Source: Flavobacteriaceae bacterium (GTDB lineage: Bacteria; Bacteroidota; Bacteroidia; Flavobacteriales; Flavobacteriaceae). From it: a DNA stretch of 64,000 nucleotides. The stretch's first letter is position 1. The number at the start of each line of letters is the position of its first letter. The notes under the pieces are model-generated. The model was given only the letters and a program-made list of their open reading frames with translations. It had not been told where the DNA came from and did no database searches. The stretch covers positions 1-64,000 of the forward strand of contig JABSPM010000013.1 in assembly GCA_013215095.1 (NCBI GenBank), written 5' to 3'. A program made the translations under genes and the position numbers. Shown in pieces: positions 36,920 through 44,164 of the stretch.

Positions 36920-37033
36920 TTATAAAAAACGTATTCTAGTGCCTTTTTTATTAAACATACTATAGCATTCTTTATTGTTTCCACATCAGTGTAAATATAT
37001 GCAAATAATGCCTTTTTGTTACATATATATGAA

Positions 37034-37066
37034 TATTATGGATAATATAATACCTATTATGGATAA
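37034..37066 (+). promoter_or_regulatory. AraC-type direct-repeat operator upstream of the hydroxyproline genes
   Basis: TATTATGGATAA occurs twice, at 37034-37045 and 37055-37066, with 21 bp from start to start (two helical turns). It lies 31 bp before the -7 box at 37098, where an activator would overlap the -33 position. Confidence 0.65.
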
Positions 37067-37097
37067 AACAGCATTACGAAAACCCATAAGAACATCT

Positions 37098-37105
37098 TAA
37101 ATTTG
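37098..37105 (+). promoter_or_regulatory. -7 box of the hydroxyproline catabolic promoter
   Basis: TAAATTTG fits TAnnTTTG and lies 22 bp before the ATG at 37128. No TTG is present at the normal -33 position, consistent with dependence on an activator. Confidence 0.5.
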
Positions 37106-37127
37106 CGTAACACAAACAGATTAATTT

Positions 37128-38042
37128 ATGAAATTCAATTGGGAAGGTGTCATGCCTGCGGTAACAACAAAATTTAAGGAAGATGATACTTTAGATTTGC
37201 AAATGTTTACAAAAAATATTCAAGCACAATTAGATGCAGGCGTGCATGGTATTGTCCTTGGAGGCACATTAGGAGAAGCGAGTACATTAAGCAAGCAAGA
37301 AAAAAGAATATTAACACGTACTACAGTTGCTATTGTAGAAGACAAAATACCTGTAATGATAAATATTGCGGAGCAATCCACTAAAGCGGCCATAGCGGCA
37401 GCTCAAAACGCCGAAGATGATGGTGCAAGCGGATTAATGATGCTCCCACCAATGCGTTATAAAGCTGGAGACAGAGAAACCGTAGCATATTTTAAAGCCG
37501 TTGCCAACGCTACCAGCTTGCCTATTATGGTTTACAACAATCCTGTAGATTATAATATTGAAATAACCCTAGAGATGTTTAATGAATTATTAAAATGTCA
37601 CAACATCACAGCAGTAAAAGAATCTACAAGAGATATCTCTAATGTCACTCGCATCAAAAATCAATTTGGAGACCGATTAAAGATAATGACAGGCGTAGAC
37701 ACACTAGCTTTAGAAAGCCTATTGATGGGTGCAGACGGGTGGATTGCAGGATTAGTATGCGCATTTCCTGCCGAAACTGTAGCAATTTACGAACTTCAAA
37801 AAGCGGGGAGAATTCAAGAAGCAATCGCTATTTACCGCTGGTTTTTACCATTGCTAGAGTTAGATATTAATCCTAAATTAGTACAAAATATCAAACTCGC
37901 TGAAGTAGCCACCGGAATTGGAACAGAAATCGTGCGTGCACCACGTTTACCTTTAATTGGAGAAGAACGCAAACACGTCTTAAAAGTCATTGAACAAGGT
38001 CTTAAAAATAGACCAACACTACCAGAATATAAGAATTTATAA
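37128..38042 (+). CDS. Dihydrodipicolinate synthase family deaminase (pyrroline-4-hydroxy-2-carboxylate deaminase)
   Basis: 304 residues, TIM-barrel DHDPS/NAL family: GGTLGEASTLS (~43-53), MVYNNP with the catalytic Tyr (~134) and the Schiff-base Lys in AVKESTRD (~163). Within this gene set it most likely deaminates and dehydrates delta1-pyrroline-4-hydroxy-2-carboxylate to 2-oxoglutarate semialdehyde, the third step of the D-hydroxyproline route. That role is inferred from the neighbours. First gene after the AraC-controlled promoter. Confidence 0.9.
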   Translation: MKFNWEGVMPAVTTKFKEDDTLDLQMFTKNIQAQLDAGVHGIVLGGTLGEASTLSKQEKRILTRTTVAIVEDKIPVMINIAEQSTKAAIAAAQNAEDDGASGLMMLPPMRYKAGDRETVAYFKAVANATSLPIMVYNNPVDYNIEITLEMFNELLKCHNITAVKESTRDISNVTRIKNQFGDRLKIMTGVDTLALESLLMGADGWIAGLVCAFPAETVAIYELQKAGRIQEAIAIYRWFLPLLELDINPKLVQNIKLAEVATGIGTEIVRAPRLPLIGEERKHVLKVIEQGLKNRPTLPEYKNL

Positions 38043-38100
38043 TTTTTGGGTGTTCCCTAAAGGTCGCGCTTTCGGCAGTCGCTTTTTTTATGCCCAAAAA
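38043..38100. repeat. TTTGGG...GGTCG...CCCAAA intergenic element
   Basis: TTTTTGGG (38043-38050) and CCCAAAAA (38093-38100) are perfect inverted repeats enclosing GTTCCCTAAAGGTCGCGCTT and a T7 run. The inner pattern (GGGTGTTCCC ... GGTCG) resembles a short intergenic repeat I recall from many Bacteroidota genomes. It starts directly at the stop codon and may double as a terminator. Confidence 0.5.
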
Positions 38101-38163
38101 CATGACCATAAAAAAGAGCTTCAACAAAGCCTCAATCGCTAACACAAAGGAATGAACAAATAA

Positions 38164-38427
38164 CTAATGAAACAATGAGACAATGAAGGAATGAAGCAAT
38201 GAGATAATGAAGGAATGAACATTATAACATTTAACCACTGTAATATTACGACATTAAATCATTAAGACATTAAAACAATGAAACAATGAAACAATGAGAC
38301 AATGAGACAATGAGACAATGAAGCAATGAAGGAATGAGATAATGAAACATTATAACATTAAACCATTGTAGCATTAAGACATTAATTCATTACGACATTA
38401 ATTCATTACAACATTAAAATATTGAAA
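38164..38427. repeat. Octamer-periodic array of AATGAnnn and CATTAnnn units
   Basis: Thirty-three consecutive 8-bp units keep exact register from 38164 to the ALDH start codon. Seven AATGA-type units (such as ACAATGAG, GCAATGAG) are followed by CATTA-type units (CATTATAA, CATTAAAT, CATTAAGA), nine more AATGA-type units and nine more CATTA-type units (CATTAATT, CATTACGA, CATTACAA). The second half repeats the first in organisation. Related sequence starts at 38151. No ORF in it. Confidence 0.85.
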
Positions 38428-38428
38428 A

Positions 38429-40018
38429 ATGATTACAGGAAAAAACTATATAGGACAACAAATTTCGGCACAAGGGAATAAAACGTTTAAAACCTTTAAT
38501 CCATTACTAAATGCTGAAAACCCATGGAAATTAACAGAAGCCACGGCAGAAGAAGTAGAAGAAGCTTGCAATTTAGCAACTGAAGCATACAAGACATATT
38601 CTAGAACTTCAGGCGTACAGAAAGCAAAATTTTTAAGGGCTATAGCAGAAGAGATAGAGGCTTTAGGCGATATGCTTTTAGAGGTGTATCAGTCAGAAAG
38701 CGGATTGCCAAACGGACGAGCAAGAGGCGAACGTAAGCGAACTTTAGGACAATTGAGAGATTTTGCAGATTATGTAGAAGCTGGAGACTGGGTAGACGCC
38801 TCAATAGATACGGCTCAACCAGAACGTCACCCAATTCCAAAAGTAGACTTACGAAAAATGAATATCGCTCTGGGACCCGTTGTGGTTTTTGGAGCTTCTA
38901 ATTTTCCATTAGCATTCTCCACTGCAGGAGGCGATACAGCAGCAGCTTTAGCAGCAGGATGCCCAGTCATTGTAAAATCCCATCCAATGCATGCCGCAAC
39001 AGGAGAAATGGTTGCTAGTGCCGTAATTAAAGCCGCACAGCAAACAAGTATGCCCAATGGTGTGTTTTCAAATTTAAACAGCAGTGGCATCGAAGTAGGT
39101 CAACAATTGGTATTGCATCCAAATATAAAAGCAGTAGGCTTTACCGGCAGTATTAAAGGCGGTCGTGCATTATATGATTTAGCAGCTCAACGCAAAGAAC
39201 CCATTCCTGTTTTTGCCGAAATGGGAAGTATCAATCCAATAGTTTTGTTACCAAATGCACTGCATAATAGAGCCGAAAATATCGCAAAAACATACGCAAA
39301 TTCAATCACCCTAGGTACAGGACAATTTTGCACCAATCCAGGACTAATACTTGGCGTAAAGTCAGATGGCTTAACCAGATTTATAAACACTTTAGCTCAA
39401 GAAATTATAAAAGTTGAACCCACCTGTATGCTACATCCAAATATTGCAGGGGCTTATGAAGCCAAAAAGGCTAATGCATTAGAACAACAAGGTGTCAAAG
39501 TCTTGGCAACTTACCCCGAAGAGGTAAAACCAAACCATGCACGTCAAGTCGTTACAACAGTAGAAGGAGAAACATTTTTAAATAATACAACATTACATCA
39601 TGAAGTCTTTGGACCATTTTCAATAGTAGTCCAATGTGAAGATGAAACACAATTAGAAACTGTAATTTCAAAATTAGAAGGACAGCTCACAGGAACAATT
39701 ATTTCAGATGAAAATGAAATAAATACAAAATATAATATTGTGGCAGCATTGCAAAATAGAGTCGGACGTATTATTTTTAATGGGGTTCCTACAGGTGTAG
39801 AAGTGTGTCCATCTATGCAACATGGTGGACCTTATCCTGCAACCACAGATAGCAGATTTACAGCAGTTGGAGTAAATTCTATCAAACGATTTGTAAGACC
39901 TTTTAGTTTTCAGTCTTGGCCAAATGAATTACTCCCAGATGAATTAAAAAACGAAAACCCTTTAGGTATTTTAAGAACTGTAAATGGAAAAACCACCAAT
40001 GAACCAATGAACCAATGA
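38429..40018 (+). CDS. 2-oxoglutarate semialdehyde dehydrogenase (ALDH family)
   Basis: 529 residues, aldehyde dehydrogenase fold of the alpha-ketoglutaric semialdehyde dehydrogenase type. NAD(P) site GFTGSIKGGRAL (~237), catalytic Glu in FAEMGSINPI (~267) and catalytic Cys in GTGQFCTNPG (~300) are present. It oxidises 2-oxoglutarate semialdehyde to 2-oxoglutarate, the last step of hydroxyproline breakdown. The start codon abuts an octamer array, and the last codons (TTNEPMNQ) plus the stop are themselves written in the next array, an unusual C-terminal tail. Confidence 0.92.
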   Translation: MITGKNYIGQQISAQGNKTFKTFNPLLNAENPWKLTEATAEEVEEACNLATEAYKTYSRTSGVQKAKFLRAIAEEIEALGDMLLEVYQSESGLPNGRARGERKRTLGQLRDFADYVEAGDWVDASIDTAQPERHPIPKVDLRKMNIALGPVVVFGASNFPLAFSTAGGDTAAALAAGCPVIVKSHPMHAATGEMVASAVIKAAQQTSMPNGVFSNLNSSGIEVGQQLVLHPNIKAVGFTGSIKGGRALYDLAAQRKEPIPVFAEMGSINPIVLLPNALHNRAENIAKTYANSITLGTGQFCTNPGLILGVKSDGLTRFINTLAQEIIKVEPTCMLHPNIAGAYEAKKANALEQQGVKVLATYPEEVKPNHARQVVTTVEGETFLNNTTLHHEVFGPFSIVVQCEDETQLETVISKLEGQLTGTIISDENEINTKYNIVAALQNRVGRIIFNGVPTGVEVCPSMQHGGPYPATTDSRFTAVGVNSIKRFVRPFSFQSWPNELLPDELKNENPLGILRTVNGKTTNEPMNQ

Positions 40019-40076
40019 AGTAATGAAGTAAAGAAATATCAATTCATTACAACATTAAACCAATTGATAATTTAGG
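39997..40076. repeat. Octamer-periodic array, left of the S23-like gene
   Basis: CAATGAAC, CAATGAAC, CAATGAAG, TAATGAAG, TAAAGAAA, TATCAATT, CATTACAA, CATTAAAC, CAATTGAT follow one another in strict 8-bp register, with AATGA-type units first and CATTA-type units second, as at 38164. It overlaps the end of the ALDH gene. Confidence 0.8.
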
Positions 40077-40082
40077 ACACTT

Positions 40083-40443
40083 ATGGAAAAAATATTTTTT
40101 GTTGAGCAATTAAAAAAAAGAACCAAAAAGTTAGCTATTGATGTTATCAATTTATATGATATAATAGATAAAACTGAAGCATCAAGAATTATGGGAAGAC
40201 AATTAATTCGTTCTGTAACCTCTACGGCAGCAAATTATAGAGCTGCTTGTATAGCACGTTCAAAAGAAGGAGTTTTATTCGAAAATGTCTATAGTTGCTG
40301 AAGAAGTTGATGAAACTTTATTTTGGTTAGAAATGTTAGTCGAAACCGATTTTATTTCAATGGAAAAAGTAAAACCAACCCTAGACGAAACCTTAGGAAT
40401 AGTTAAAGTTGTTTCAAAAGCTAGAAAAAACGCTAGAAGTTAA
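40083..40443 (+). pseudogene. S23-type four-helix-bundle protein, frameshifted
   Basis: The first frame (KIFFVEQLKKRTKKLAIDVI ... RAACIARSKEG) ends at 40301. Removing one G in GAAGGAG near 40270 restores the family continuation SKMSIVAEEVDETLFWLEML, ending ...SKARKNARS at 40443, about 119 residues in all, the normal length. Family members are four-helix bundles first described inside 23S rRNA intervening sequences, also found free in Bacteroidota genomes. Here the gene is flanked on both sides by octamer arrays and splits the hydroxyproline gene set. A sequencing error cannot be excluded. Confidence 0.8.
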
Positions 40444-40451
40444 GGTTGAGG

Positions 40452-40528
40452 CAATTAATTAATGAAGCAATGAACTAATGAAGTAAGTAAGGAACCATTA
40501 AGACATTAAATCACTAGTATATTGAATA
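40452..40528. repeat. Octamer-periodic array, right of the S23-like gene
   Basis: CAATTAAT, TAATGAAG, CAATGAAC, TAATGAAG, TAAGTAAG, then after a 4-bp slip CATTAAGA, CATTAAAT, CACTAGTA, TATTGAAT. Same unit types and order as the arrays at 38164 and 39997. It runs into the epimerase start. Confidence 0.75.
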
Positions 40529-40530
40529 TT

Positions 40531-41538
40531 ATGAAAAAAACTTTTTTTTGTGTAGATGCGCATACCTGTGGAAACCCTGTGCGAGTAGTTGCTGGAGGTG
40601 GCCCAAATCTAAAAGGTGTTAATATGAGCGAGAAACGCCAGCACTTTTTACAAGAATATGATTGGATACGTAAAGGACTAATGTTTGAACCACGAGGACA
40701 CGACATGATGAGTGGTTCTATTATATATCCACCACATGATTCCAATAATGATTTTGGAATTCTGTTTATAGAAACCTCAGGCTGTTTACCTATGTGTGGA
40801 CATGGTACTATTGGAACCATAACAATAGCTATAGAAGAAGGCTTAGTAACGCCAAAAATCCCAGGGGAAATAAAAATGGAAACACCCGCAGGATTGGTAG
40901 AAATAGAATATCATCAAACAGGTAAAAAAGTAGATTGGGTAAGACTCATCAATGTAAAAAGTTACCTCGCTGCTCAAGATTTAACTATAGAATTGGATGC
41001 TCTTGGGCTAATCACCTTTGATGTATCTTACGGAGGAAACTACTACGCTATCGTAGAACCACAAGCCAATTTTAAAGGGGTTCATAATTACACTGCAGCT
41101 GAGATTATTCGGTTTTCTCAAGAAGCAAGACAAAAAATTAATGTCAAATATCCAGACTATTTTATCCATCCAGAAAACGACACCATAAGGGATGTAAGTC
41201 ATATGCTCTGGACTGGAAACCCTTTAGACCCGAATTCTTCTGGAAGAAATGCAGTTTTTTATGGCAATAAAGCCATAGATAGAAGTCCTTGCGGAACAGG
41301 AACGTCTGCAAGAATAGCACAATTGCATGCTAAAGGCCAATTGAAAAAAGGCGAAACTTTTGTGCATGAAAGCTTTATTGGATCAAAATTTATTGGACGT
41401 ATAGAAGAAGAAACCACACTAAAAGGAAAACCTGCTGTAATACCTAGTATTCAAGGATGGGCAAAAGTGTATGGATATAATACTATTATTATCGATGAGG
41501 AAGATGACCCATATGCACATGGATTCCAAGTCATTTAG
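40531..41538 (+). CDS. 4-hydroxyproline epimerase (proline racemase family)
   Basis: 335 residues from the ATG at 40531; the in-frame TTG at 40522 lies within the repeat and is not preferred. The family opening FFCVDAHTCGNPVRVVAGG and both catalytic cysteines, GCLPMCGHGTIG (~90) and DRSPCGTGTSAR (~254), are present. The Cys/Cys pair indicates an epimerase/racemase rather than a dehydratase (Cys/Thr). It converts trans-4-hydroxy-L-proline to cis-4-hydroxy-D-proline, the first step of the pathway encoded here. Confidence 0.93.
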   Translation: MKKTFFCVDAHTCGNPVRVVAGGGPNLKGVNMSEKRQHFLQEYDWIRKGLMFEPRGHDMMSGSIIYPPHDSNNDFGILFIETSGCLPMCGHGTIGTITIAIEEGLVTPKIPGEIKMETPAGLVEIEYHQTGKKVDWVRLINVKSYLAAQDLTIELDALGLITFDVSYGGNYYAIVEPQANFKGVHNYTAAEIIRFSQEARQKINVKYPDYFIHPENDTIRDVSHMLWTGNPLDPNSSGRNAVFYGNKAIDRSPCGTGTSARIAQLHAKGQLKKGETFVHESFIGSKFIGRIEEETTLKGKPAVIPSIQGWAKVYGYNTIIIDEEDDPYAHGFQVI

Positions 41539-41618
41539 ACATGATAAATAAGTAACAGCATCAAATATTTTAGACGATTATAAACGTATGTAAGTATTTA
41601 TATCAAAATAATATAACA

Positions 41619-42866
41619 ATGAAAAATTGTATCGTTATTGGAGGAGGTATTATAGGTCTATGTACCGCATATTATCTCCATAAAGAAGGGCATGAAGTTA
41701 CCGTAATTGATAAGTCTGATTTTACATCAGGAGCATCTTATGTCAATGCAGGATACATTACACCAAGCCATATTATGCCATTAGCTACACCAGGTATGAT
41801 TAATAAAGGAATTCGATGGATGTTTAATGCCTCTAGCCCGTTTTATGTAAAACCTAGATTAGATAAGGATTTTCTAAAATGGTCTTGGGCGTTTAAAAAA
41901 TCGGCGACAGCAAAGAAAGTAGAAGCCGCTATTCCAGTGCTAAAAACTATTAATTTATGGAGTAGAGATTTGTTTGAAACCATTAAATCTAGCAATGAAT
42001 TTGAATTTCATTACGAACGCAAAGGCTTGTTGATGTATTACCAAACAGATGCGGTTGGAGAAGAGGAATGGAAGGTTGGTCAACGCGCCATTAAAGAAGG
42101 AATTAAAGTAGAGCATTTATCAAAAGAAGCCTTAACATCTATAGAGCCAAATGTTGACCTTAATGTAAAAGGTGCAGTGTATTTTCATTCGGATGCACAC
42201 ATGACACCAAGAAGCTTTATGGAACAAATACTAACGTATCTCAAATCCCAAGGCGTAACTATAAAATCAAATGAAGAGGTAAAAGACTTAAAGGTTTCCG
42301 ATGCTTCTATTTTAGAACTGTGCACAGATAAAGCAAATTATACCGCAGACGAATTTGTGATTGCTGCGGGTAGCTGGAGTTCGATACTAACAAAAAAACT
42401 TAACTTAAATATTCCTATTCAAGCAGGAAAAGGCTATTGCATTAATGTAGAACGTCAAACCAATATTACGATGCCGTCTATTTTATGTGAAGCCAAAGTT
42501 GCGGTAACGCCAATGCAGGGTTATACGCGTTTTGCAGGCACCATGGAAATCGGAGGAATTAATCACAATATTAATCCGAAAAGAGTGAATGCTATTGCCA
42601 AAGCTGCAGAAAGCTATTATACAAATTTAGAAATTACTACTCCCGAAAAACAAGCAGCAAAATGCGGTCTGAGACCCTGTTCTCCAGACGGTTTGCCTTA
42701 CATAGGAAGGTCTTCAAAATACGACAATCTTACACTTGCGGCAGGACATGCTATGATGGGGTGGAGCTTAGCTCCTGCTACAGGAAAATTAGTGTCTGAA
42801 ATAGTGTCCAATAAAAAAACATCCGTAGATTTGGACCCCTTTCATCCCGATAGAAAATTTATCTAA
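41619..42866 (+). CDS. D-amino-acid dehydrogenase (probable D-hydroxyproline dehydrogenase)
   Basis: 415 residues, DadA-like FAD oxidoreductase. FAD motif VIGGGIIGLCTAYYL (~5-19) and the C-terminal GLRPCSPDGLPYIG and GHAMMGWSLAPATGKL are typical. It oxidises cis-4-hydroxy-D-proline to delta1-pyrroline-4-hydroxy-2-carboxylate; electrons go to the respiratory chain. The assignment from general D-amino acids to hydroxyproline rests on the neighbours. Confidence 0.92.
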   Translation: MKNCIVIGGGIIGLCTAYYLHKEGHEVTVIDKSDFTSGASYVNAGYITPSHIMPLATPGMINKGIRWMFNASSPFYVKPRLDKDFLKWSWAFKKSATAKKVEAAIPVLKTINLWSRDLFETIKSSNEFEFHYERKGLLMYYQTDAVGEEEWKVGQRAIKEGIKVEHLSKEALTSIEPNVDLNVKGAVYFHSDAHMTPRSFMEQILTYLKSQGVTIKSNEEVKDLKVSDASILELCTDKANYTADEFVIAAGSWSSILTKKLNLNIPIQAGKGYCINVERQTNITMPSILCEAKVAVTPMQGYTRFAGTMEIGGINHNINPKRVNAIAKAAESYYTNLEITTPEKQAAKCGLRPCSPDGLPYIGRSSKYDNLTLAAGHAMMGWSLAPATGKLVSEIVSNKKTSVDLDPFHPDRKFI

Positions 42867-42882
42867 TCCTAAAATTCATAGA

Positions 42883-44164
42883 ATGCGATACGATATCATA
42901 CCTCAATCTTTATTTATAAACAATAGAAAACGTTTTGAAAAAAAGATGCAGCCAAATACGATTGCTATTCTAACATCAAATGACATTAAACATAAACAAT
43001 GCCGATGATGTCATGGGTTTTACGTAGAATAATGATTTGTTTTACTTGTCGGGTATTGAGCAAGAAGTTACGATTTTAATGTTATATCCTGATGCTTACA
43101 AACCAGAAAATAGAGCCATTCTACTTGTAAAAGAAACTAATGCACATATCAAAATTTGGGATGGAGAGAAGTTAACTAAAGATAAAGCTTCGAGAATTTT
43201 TGGTATTGCACGCGTGGAATAGGTTCATCATTTTGAAACACAATTACAATACATAGCTTTTGAAGCCGATGGTTTATTTGGGACATGATGAGCACAGTAA
43301 GCATATCACTAAAGACCAAGAAACGCAACAAGACCGAATGATATTTTGGTGCAAGCAAAAATATCCACTACATGATTATCATCGCGTAGCAAAAATTACA
43401 CGCTATTTACGTCAAATTAAATCTAAAGAAGAAATTGTATTAATTCAAAAAGCGGCTGATATCAGTGTGGAGAGTTTTTGTAGGGTTTTGAAAGCTTGCC
43501 AACCTAATATGAGAGCATATGAATTGGAAGCTGAACTAAGCTCTAATTTAATAAAATCTGGAGCTACACGTCATGCATTCAAGCCTATTGTGGCATCTGG
43601 TAGTAATGTTTGTATATTACATTATAACACCAAATAATAATGTCTGTAAATCTGGGGATATGATACTTTTAGATTTTGAAGTCTGTTATGCCAATTACAA
43701 TAGTGATACAACACGATATTTTCCTGTAAACGGGAAATTTTCGGAACGTCAAAAAGAAGTTTACACTTCGGTGATACACTGTTTAAAATAAGGCGATAAA
43801 CGACTTAAAACTGGGGTTTTACATGCAGATTATGAAAAACAAATGGCAGGTTTGGTAGAGTTTGAACTGATAAAAATAGGACTATTAGATGCGGATGAAG
43901 TAGCGCAACAAGACCCTCAAAACCTCTTGTACAAAAAATATTTTATGCATGGCACTGTACATCATATTGGATTAGATGTGCATGATGACCCGTATAAAAT
44001 GATTGCCCCAGGAATAGTGTTTACTTGTGAACCCGGCATATATATCCCCTATAGGATGCAGACTGGAAAATGATTATTTAATAACCGAAAATGGCAACAT
44101 TAACCTTACAGAAGCAATACCTATAGAAATTGATGCTATTGAAGCTCTAATGCAGGTTGACTAA
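42883..44164 (+). pseudogene. Aminopeptidase P family protein, multiply frameshifted
   Basis: Segments in different frames align in order with the intact aminopeptidase P at 16138. They include the start (MRYDIIPQSLFINNRKRF), FYLSGIEQEVTILMLYPDA, KETNAHIKIWDGEKL, LLDFEVCYANYNSDTTRYF, MHGTVHHIGLDVHDD, FTCEPGIYIP and the end IEIDAIEALMQVD. At least four frame changes or stops separate them, so no functional enzyme is made. It was probably a proline-releasing peptidase feeding the pathway next to it. Confidence 0.9.

Follow-up and report, generated by a model that had tools for sequence, protein, structure and literature searches.

A probable decayed S23 fold-back element between the genes of a flavobacterial operon

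Results

The operon and its octamer arrays

The window, by which we mean the whole stretch of 64,000 nucleotides that was analysed, carries on its forward strand what we presume to be a hydroxyproline operon, a label that comes from an earlier sequence-only reading of this DNA. It comprises a dihydrodipicolinate-synthase (DHDPS) family gene (PF00701, 37128..38042), an aldehyde dehydrogenase (PF00171, 38429..40018), a proline racemase family gene (PF05544, 40531..41538) and an FAD-dependent oxidoreductase (PF01266, 41619..42866). Downstream of the operon, an aminopeptidase P gene (AMP_N and Peptidase_M24, 43037-44073) is split over four ORFs and has decayed. Three of the operon's spacers are octamer arrays in which AATGA-type units come first and CATTA-type units second, as the sequence-only reading had it; their lag-8 identities (0.71, 0.65 and 0.57) exceed the maxima of 500 shuffles in each case (0.41, 0.43 and 0.52). 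The statement that no such array occurs elsewhere in the window also holds, as no further AATG or CATT chain of at least three units was found outside the three spacers, and such chains are absent from 16 of 20 block-shuffled windows; genome-wide, however, the pattern is spread over seven contigs.

The longest array (38166-38419) has no S23 gene in its own spacer. It begins with an AATGA-type block of seven units (38166..38221) and a CATTA-type block with several decayed units (38220..38275), followed by a second AATGA-type block of nine units (38277..38348) and a second CATTA-type block of nine units (38348..38419), which ends just 5′ of the aldehyde dehydrogenase start; by eye, an (AATGA)n(CATTA)n array seems to stand there twice, head to tail. 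The array had been described as free of register slip, with three freely varying bases per unit, and neither description quite holds. The AATG starts move from phase 6 (mod 8) at 38166-38214 to phase 5 at 38277-38341, a single one-base shift between the two AATGA blocks, and all 14 CATT starts are in phase 4. Apart from the one that ends the first block, the AATGA units follow AATGA-[AG]-N-[CTG]. As RNA, the array folds moderately well (z -2.9), less strongly than its opposite strand (-39.6 versus -53.3 kcal/mol). Between the DHDPS gene and this array lies a GC-richer stretch (38048-38095, GGGTGTTCCC...TATGCCC); we considered 38048-38082 as a dispersed element and rejected it, since the patterns tried matched once in the window and once in the genome.

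The other two arrays flank an S23 four-helix-bundle gene. The left array has four AATGA-type units (39998..40029), one of which contains the aldehyde dehydrogenase stop codon (40016-40018), and CATTA-type units read by eye (40045..40060); the right array likewise has AATGA-type units (40461..40484) and CATTA-type units, again read by eye (40496..40511). The placing of the gene between two arrays was therefore right, but the gene is broken, its N-terminal part (40083..40301, TIGR02436 E 6.6e-08) and its C-terminal part (40285..40443, E 2.1e-04) lying in different frames. Against a TIGR02436 cut-off of 24, a direct scan gives 32.8 bits for the first part and 21.4 for the second, and in the genome search both parts are above the cut-off (30.5 and 28.6). 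Both are under the cut-off of Pfam PF05635, for which an intact relative in L103 scores 58.3 bits (cut-off 33.8); it is by its TIGR02436 match that the window gene belongs to the S23 family (TIGR02436/PF05635). Each flank of the gene is itself an AATGA-then-CATTA array, and the complementarity between the two is not significant (score 17, equalled by 11% of 246 other 3′ arms, fraction 0.114). As RNA, the element has an unremarkable fold (z -1.0), and a search of 37000-42000 with Rfam gave no family at gathering score. We take the window element to be a decayed copy, to judge from its sequence.

The same operon and the same arrays in relatives

Sixty genomes including the window's own were compared, and the aldehyde dehydrogenase was found in 20 (E 1e-60). 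An S23 gene was located by tblastn in four of these 20 loci, namely the window and G006, G024 and G029. In the window it stands between dehydrogenase and racemase; in the three others, which belong to other genera, it stands between racemase and oxidoreductase, in a spacer that is array-less in the window. In each of the four, S23 is immediately preceded by AATGA-type units in a chain of three to eight. The earlier proposal that array and S23 gene form one insertable unit thus gains support, from the array-flanked S23 of all four operon loci and from an arm type that follows the gene (see below). In G006, G024 and G029 (L097, L098 and L103), unlike the window, the S23 flanks are complementary (fractions 0.012, 0.000 and 0.028). 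At the remaining 16 loci, a search of the operon with AATG/CATT words gave no array of at least three units; L108 has a broken three-unit chain some 2 kb from the operon. The aldehyde dehydrogenase runs straight into the racemase start in L097, L101 and L108, and L104 and L113 (among others) have a dehydrogenase-racemase spacer without such units. The S23 gene of the G024 operon has an internal stop codon (L098, 11961-12308). Two of the four operon copies of S23 are broken, and their arrays persist.

A five-unit AATGA pattern occurs in five of the 60 genomes. The sole place of the (AATGANNN)4AATGA pattern in G006 and in G024 is the window-type operon, beside S23. The window's own genome has the slightly looser (AATGNNNN)4AATG pattern on seven contigs, the window's included, and no match to the reversed pattern; its S23 genes are on C22, C53, C76 and C24 only. 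Six array sites in this genome have no S23 nearby. Arrays without an S23 link had been named beforehand as evidence against the unit, and the outcome is mixed: such arrays exist, at these six sites and in the longest array of the window, and the association of arrays with S23 genes proves to be general. The six AATGA/CATTA octamer arrays without S23 stand on G000:C35, C37, C40, C64, C89 and C100 (L038-L043); by eye, five of them lie shortly 3′ of a stop codon, in the orientation of the gene or ORF that it ends. A candidate second S23-like gene near the C40 array was dropped, having no Pfam match. G023 and G037 also bear arrays, of which four places were read by eye (L047/L116, L072, L051 and L061). 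The G023 genome has eleven places with octamer arrays of the AATGAGAA/AATGAGGA type (on C1, for example, L047 and L072), and those that were read are intergenic.

Complementary arms around S23 genes

Read by eye, 30 S23 loci from other genera mostly have a short-period array 5′ of the gene and its reverse-complement kind 3′, with a repeat word that differs by lineage. Since the word differs between lineages, the phased protein binding offered by the sequence-only reading is unlikely to explain the arrays in general if the protein recognises a fixed sequence motif, and we set it aside. We assembled 96 loci (90 of the best-scoring among the matches listed, three copies from the window's own genome and three window-operon loci); in 43 of the 96 (expected 4.8), the gene's own 3′ flank ranks within the top 5% of reverse-complement matches. 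In the same like-for-like test, control genes (195 from 19 other genomes, with untrimmed 100-base flanks, unlike the 246-element set below) reach the top 5% in eight cases (expected 9.8), with a faint preference for the own flank by rank (p 0.04). When partner arms were permuted with the spacers trimmed, at the 89 of 96 loci of intact length, the own arms scored 2228 against 1251 ± 42, a value reached by none of 2000 permutations. Pooled inside orthologous sites, the permutation gave 1068 against 911 ± 35 (again 0 of 2000); at two of the six sites tested singly, there was no covariation (mean fractions 0.667 and 0.5). The mean score of own arms is 25.0 when inverted and 14.3, near background, in direct (uninverted) comparison.

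Among named loci (the best 80 of at least 590 confirmed), 35 of 49 from Bacteroidota and 17 of 31 from other phyla are in the top 5%. The latter loci include Desulfobacteraceae, Planctomycetales, Clostridia, Anaerolineae, Acidobacteria and Gracilibacteria; many named loci are metagenome bins, so that an individual label may be mistaken. L257, which is among the 17 and is labelled Limnohabitans, is a flavobacterial-type locus and probably a mislabelled flavobacterial contig. For the pooled set, with S23 starts, ends and neighbours assigned by simple ORF rules, 263 distinct elements, which do not include the window's broken copy, were reduced by length filters to 246 (17 dropped). The own partner is in the top 5% in 182 of the 246 and in the top 1% in 124; 64 miss the top 5%. 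In raw counts, the 5′ arms are C-poor (G > C in 206 of 246) and the 3′ arms G-poor (C > G in 203 of 246).

As RNA, own arms form a duplex of -25.0 kcal/mol against -12.8 kcal/mol for exchanged arms, and the antisense duplex reaches -26.5. G-U wobbles number 69 versus 91 A-C mismatches (share observed 0.43, expected 0.49, p 0.15), and the first set likewise has no wobble excess (29 versus 39). Because wobble pairs are not favoured, pairing in the mRNA is insufficient on its own to explain the complementarity, and we rejected the idea that selection on mRNA alone keeps the arms paired. The missing excess points to renewal of the arms at the DNA level, or to arms too young to carry the signal.

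Arm type, lineage and movement

A significant period was found in 154 of 247 arms tested (cluster representatives): seven in 106, eight in 44, nine in three and 11 in one, so that 150 of the 154 have a period of seven or eight. The fixed octamer phase that had seemed special in the window is thus the habit of a minority of the family.

In pairwise comparison, the similarity of arms tracks the identity and lineage of S23 and not the site. Pairs at the same site with 35-45% S23 identity have a mean 5′-arm score of 13.4 (225 pairs), at the background level of 14.0, and we discarded the idea that the site dictates the arms. Pairs at different sites score 39.7 at S23 identities of at least 80% (16 pairs) and 20.9 at 65-80% (104 pairs); the 16 pairs are not independent, since "different site" includes linked cases (neighbouring spacers, the tandem pair L361/L362 in one genome and the truncated contig L250). 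A same-genus sample took 90 loci out of 121 matches; of the 12 genomes in the genus of G007, 11 carry S23. At one site in a thiolase operon, followed through 11 species, there are four arm families, and both arms are of the same family wherever both are readable; the length of S23 varies with the arm family, and in the fourth family the S23 genes are either broken or short. At some sites in the genus data, the arms share little or hold both orientations. (The gene names thiolase, fadN, hisH, hisA, atpA and atpG used here are our presumptive assignments.)

The cleanest unlinked case of arms and gene together at different sites is L363 and L368, from two species: their DNA is 86% identical from S23 start -60 to S23 end +61/+86, and their flanks (about 0.9 kb examined) are otherwise unmatched, bar short repeat pieces. 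L356 and L363 (G145 and G146) have, 5′ of S23, long 14-bp (2 × 7) tandem arrays with both word orientations, nearly identical in the two species. Relatives in neighbouring spacers are found in the window operon (the window versus G006, G024 and G029), in the fad operon (L258 before fadN; L235, L257 and L146 after it), and in L356/L365 and L208/L211; independent insertion of related elements would look the same. In 54 of 69 cases an S23 gene has its best match at its own site, so movement is not frequent on this scale.

Placement, S23-less spacers and selection

S23 is co-directional with both neighbours in 208 of the 246 pooled elements and in 88 of 96 of the first set, compared with 130 of 235 controls. 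Two spacers of the 12-genome genus, hisH|hisA and atpA|atpG, are long and S23-bearing in six genomes each and S23-less in the remaining six. Ten of these 12 S23-less spacers were tested, and four (L385, L392, L393 and L398) have significant inverted arms, the inverted repeat of L398 being of a different kind from the arms of the others. L377, L380, L384 and L386 have one-sided array-like stretches and were negative in the inversion test; L390 and L397 have no significant inverted arms. The bare inverted arms at a few S23-less orthologous spacers of this other genus suggest how arrays lacking S23 can arise, and we infer that the long array of the window is a solo array left by gene loss. The median dN/dS of S23 is 0.068 (116 unsaturated pairs of 179, the pairs not being independent); on this measure S23 is under purifying selection.

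Discussion

We suggest that the window probably contains a decayed S23 fold-back element, in which a gene of the S23/Avd fold lies between inverted arrays of period seven or eight and which is placed between two operon genes. Comparison of sequences shows the anatomy, an arm complementarity that is present family-wide and when pooled within orthologous sites, an arm type that goes with lineage, homology limited to arms plus gene in L363/L368, co-directional placement, the occupied and S23-less versions of one spacer within a genus, and purifying selection on S23. The element is probably read by the operon's own transcription. We envisage that the unit would be mobile and selfish, with ends recognised by their fold-back shape and not by a fixed sequence, and that the S23 protein would bind the fold-back structure. 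Slippage and copying between arms may renew the arms at the DNA level, and solo arrays such as 38166-38419 would be what remains once the gene is lost. The fold might also let RNase III excise the element from the host transcript, as in the 23S rRNA intervening sequence (IVS), which would make insertion nearly harmless; this is the least certain step. The interpretation offered by the sequence-only reading is partly supported.

Three other explanations have to be set against the fold-back element. Complementarity of the arms could be maintained for the sake of mRNA pairing, which would either allow RNase III to excise the element or give an S23-bound hairpin that controls the operon. The gene family and the gene-in-loop layout are those of the Coxiella 23S rRNA IVS, which is described as cut by RNase III (PMC4990558), the placement is co-directional, and the own-arm RNA duplex is about twice as stable as the exchanged one. 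However, G-U is not favoured over A-C, the antisense duplex is no less stable and S23-less orthologous operons exist, so that we regard an RNA-level intervening sequence or regulator as rather unlikely. It seems improbable, too, that the arms are a mutational by-product, inverted short repeats that grow and homogenise by slippage and template switching anywhere and that S23 genes merely tolerate: control genes are almost devoid of own-flank pairing (the eight of 195 above), and from site to site the type of arm goes with the S23 lineage. This is despite a period of seven that fits the slippage-unit idea discussed for tandem heptamers (PMC4679880), the existence of S23-less arrays and the lack of a wobble signal, all of which a by-product would accommodate.

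The remaining explanation concerns the window's genome alone and makes its AATGA/CATTA arrays an S23-independent family of spacer-invading repeats, with S23 between two of them by coincidence. We give it little credence. The six other S23-less array sites in the genome, the arrays in three spacers of one operon and the non-significant pairing between the window's arms speak for it; yet this operon in three other genera holds, in another spacer, an S23 of the same lineage immediately preceded by AATGA units, and G006 and G024 carry the (AATGANNN)4AATGA pattern in that operon and nowhere else.

The decayed fold-back element thus remains our preferred reading, and there is a real chance that elements of its kind are a new class of mobile element. 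In its widest form, which we advance tentatively and with the balance of our judgement somewhat against it, the class would extend across many phyla, have no conserved end sequence, be identified by the shape of fold-back arrays of seven or eight bases, carry a single gene of the S23/Avd fold and no transposase of its own, hop between neighbouring operon spacers and leave solo arrays; the rRNA IVS would be a special case. Both the tandem heptamers of Bacteroidetes and the S23 genes of rRNA are already known, each on its own. Among the matches listed in a search of open-access papers, none connects S23 genes with inverted tandem arrays. S23 proteins are described as having no known function (PMC4990558). 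If S23 genes do travel with inverted short-repeat arms, the family would gain a context and a testable role, the binding or mobilising of fold-back nucleic acid, many unexplained intergenic repeats would gain a possible origin, and the fold common to S23 and the Avd protein of diversity-generating retroelements would become directly testable.

Comparison with known systems

MITEs and insertion sequences resemble the S23 element in being small, apparently mobile, bounded by inverted ends and accompanied by gene-less derivatives. The ends of a MITE or insertion sequence share a fixed sequence between copies, whereas the ends of S23 elements differ between S23 lineages, and distant lineages have arms at background similarity even at one site, in place of conserved terminal inverted repeats. 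About 0.5 kb is common to L363 and L368, and the gene in this unit is S23.

Short tandem repeats in intergenic regions are a feature that the arms have in common with the TAACTGA heptamers, and the cyanobacterial STRR repeats, short tandem intergenic heptamers, are comparable. The arrays of the window have a period of eight and so differ from the 7-bp head-to-tail repeats of the TAACTGA and STRR kind. The TAACTGA study describes intergenic short direct repeats, found in Bacteroidetes as well (MacGregor 2015; PMC4679880), and reports 169 direct sets and one indirect repeat in its main genome; S23 does not occur in its main text (PMC4679880).

The likeness between S23 and Avd of diversity-generating retroelements is one of fold, a common four-helix bundle. 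PF05635 is described as resembling Avd through a homologous four-helix-bundle fold (PMC10053308), and the Xanthomonas S23 protein as a homopentamer with a likeness to Avd (PMC4990558, PMC10053308). Structures of S23 proteins are known (2GSC and 2RLD).

In layout there is a parallel with the 23S rRNA IVS of Coxiella and Leptospira, which, like most of the wider family, has an S23-family ORF between complementary ends. The S23 ORF of the IVS is described as flanked by stem-forming complementary ends that RNase III cuts, and the IVS is called a selfish element (PMC4990558). The Coxiella IVS lies inside the rRNA and has one 28-bp stem (PMC4990558), whereas S23 elements lie between protein genes and have arrays of 7- or 8-mers that vary with lineage. 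Stem-forming ends are found in most of the wider family and in L097, L098 and L103, the window copy standing at a fraction of 0.114, and the window element is inserted between protein genes and not inside a 23S rRNA gene. Our best reading is that the S23 fold-back element is related to the S23-bearing intervening sequences of 23S rRNA but has its place between protein genes.
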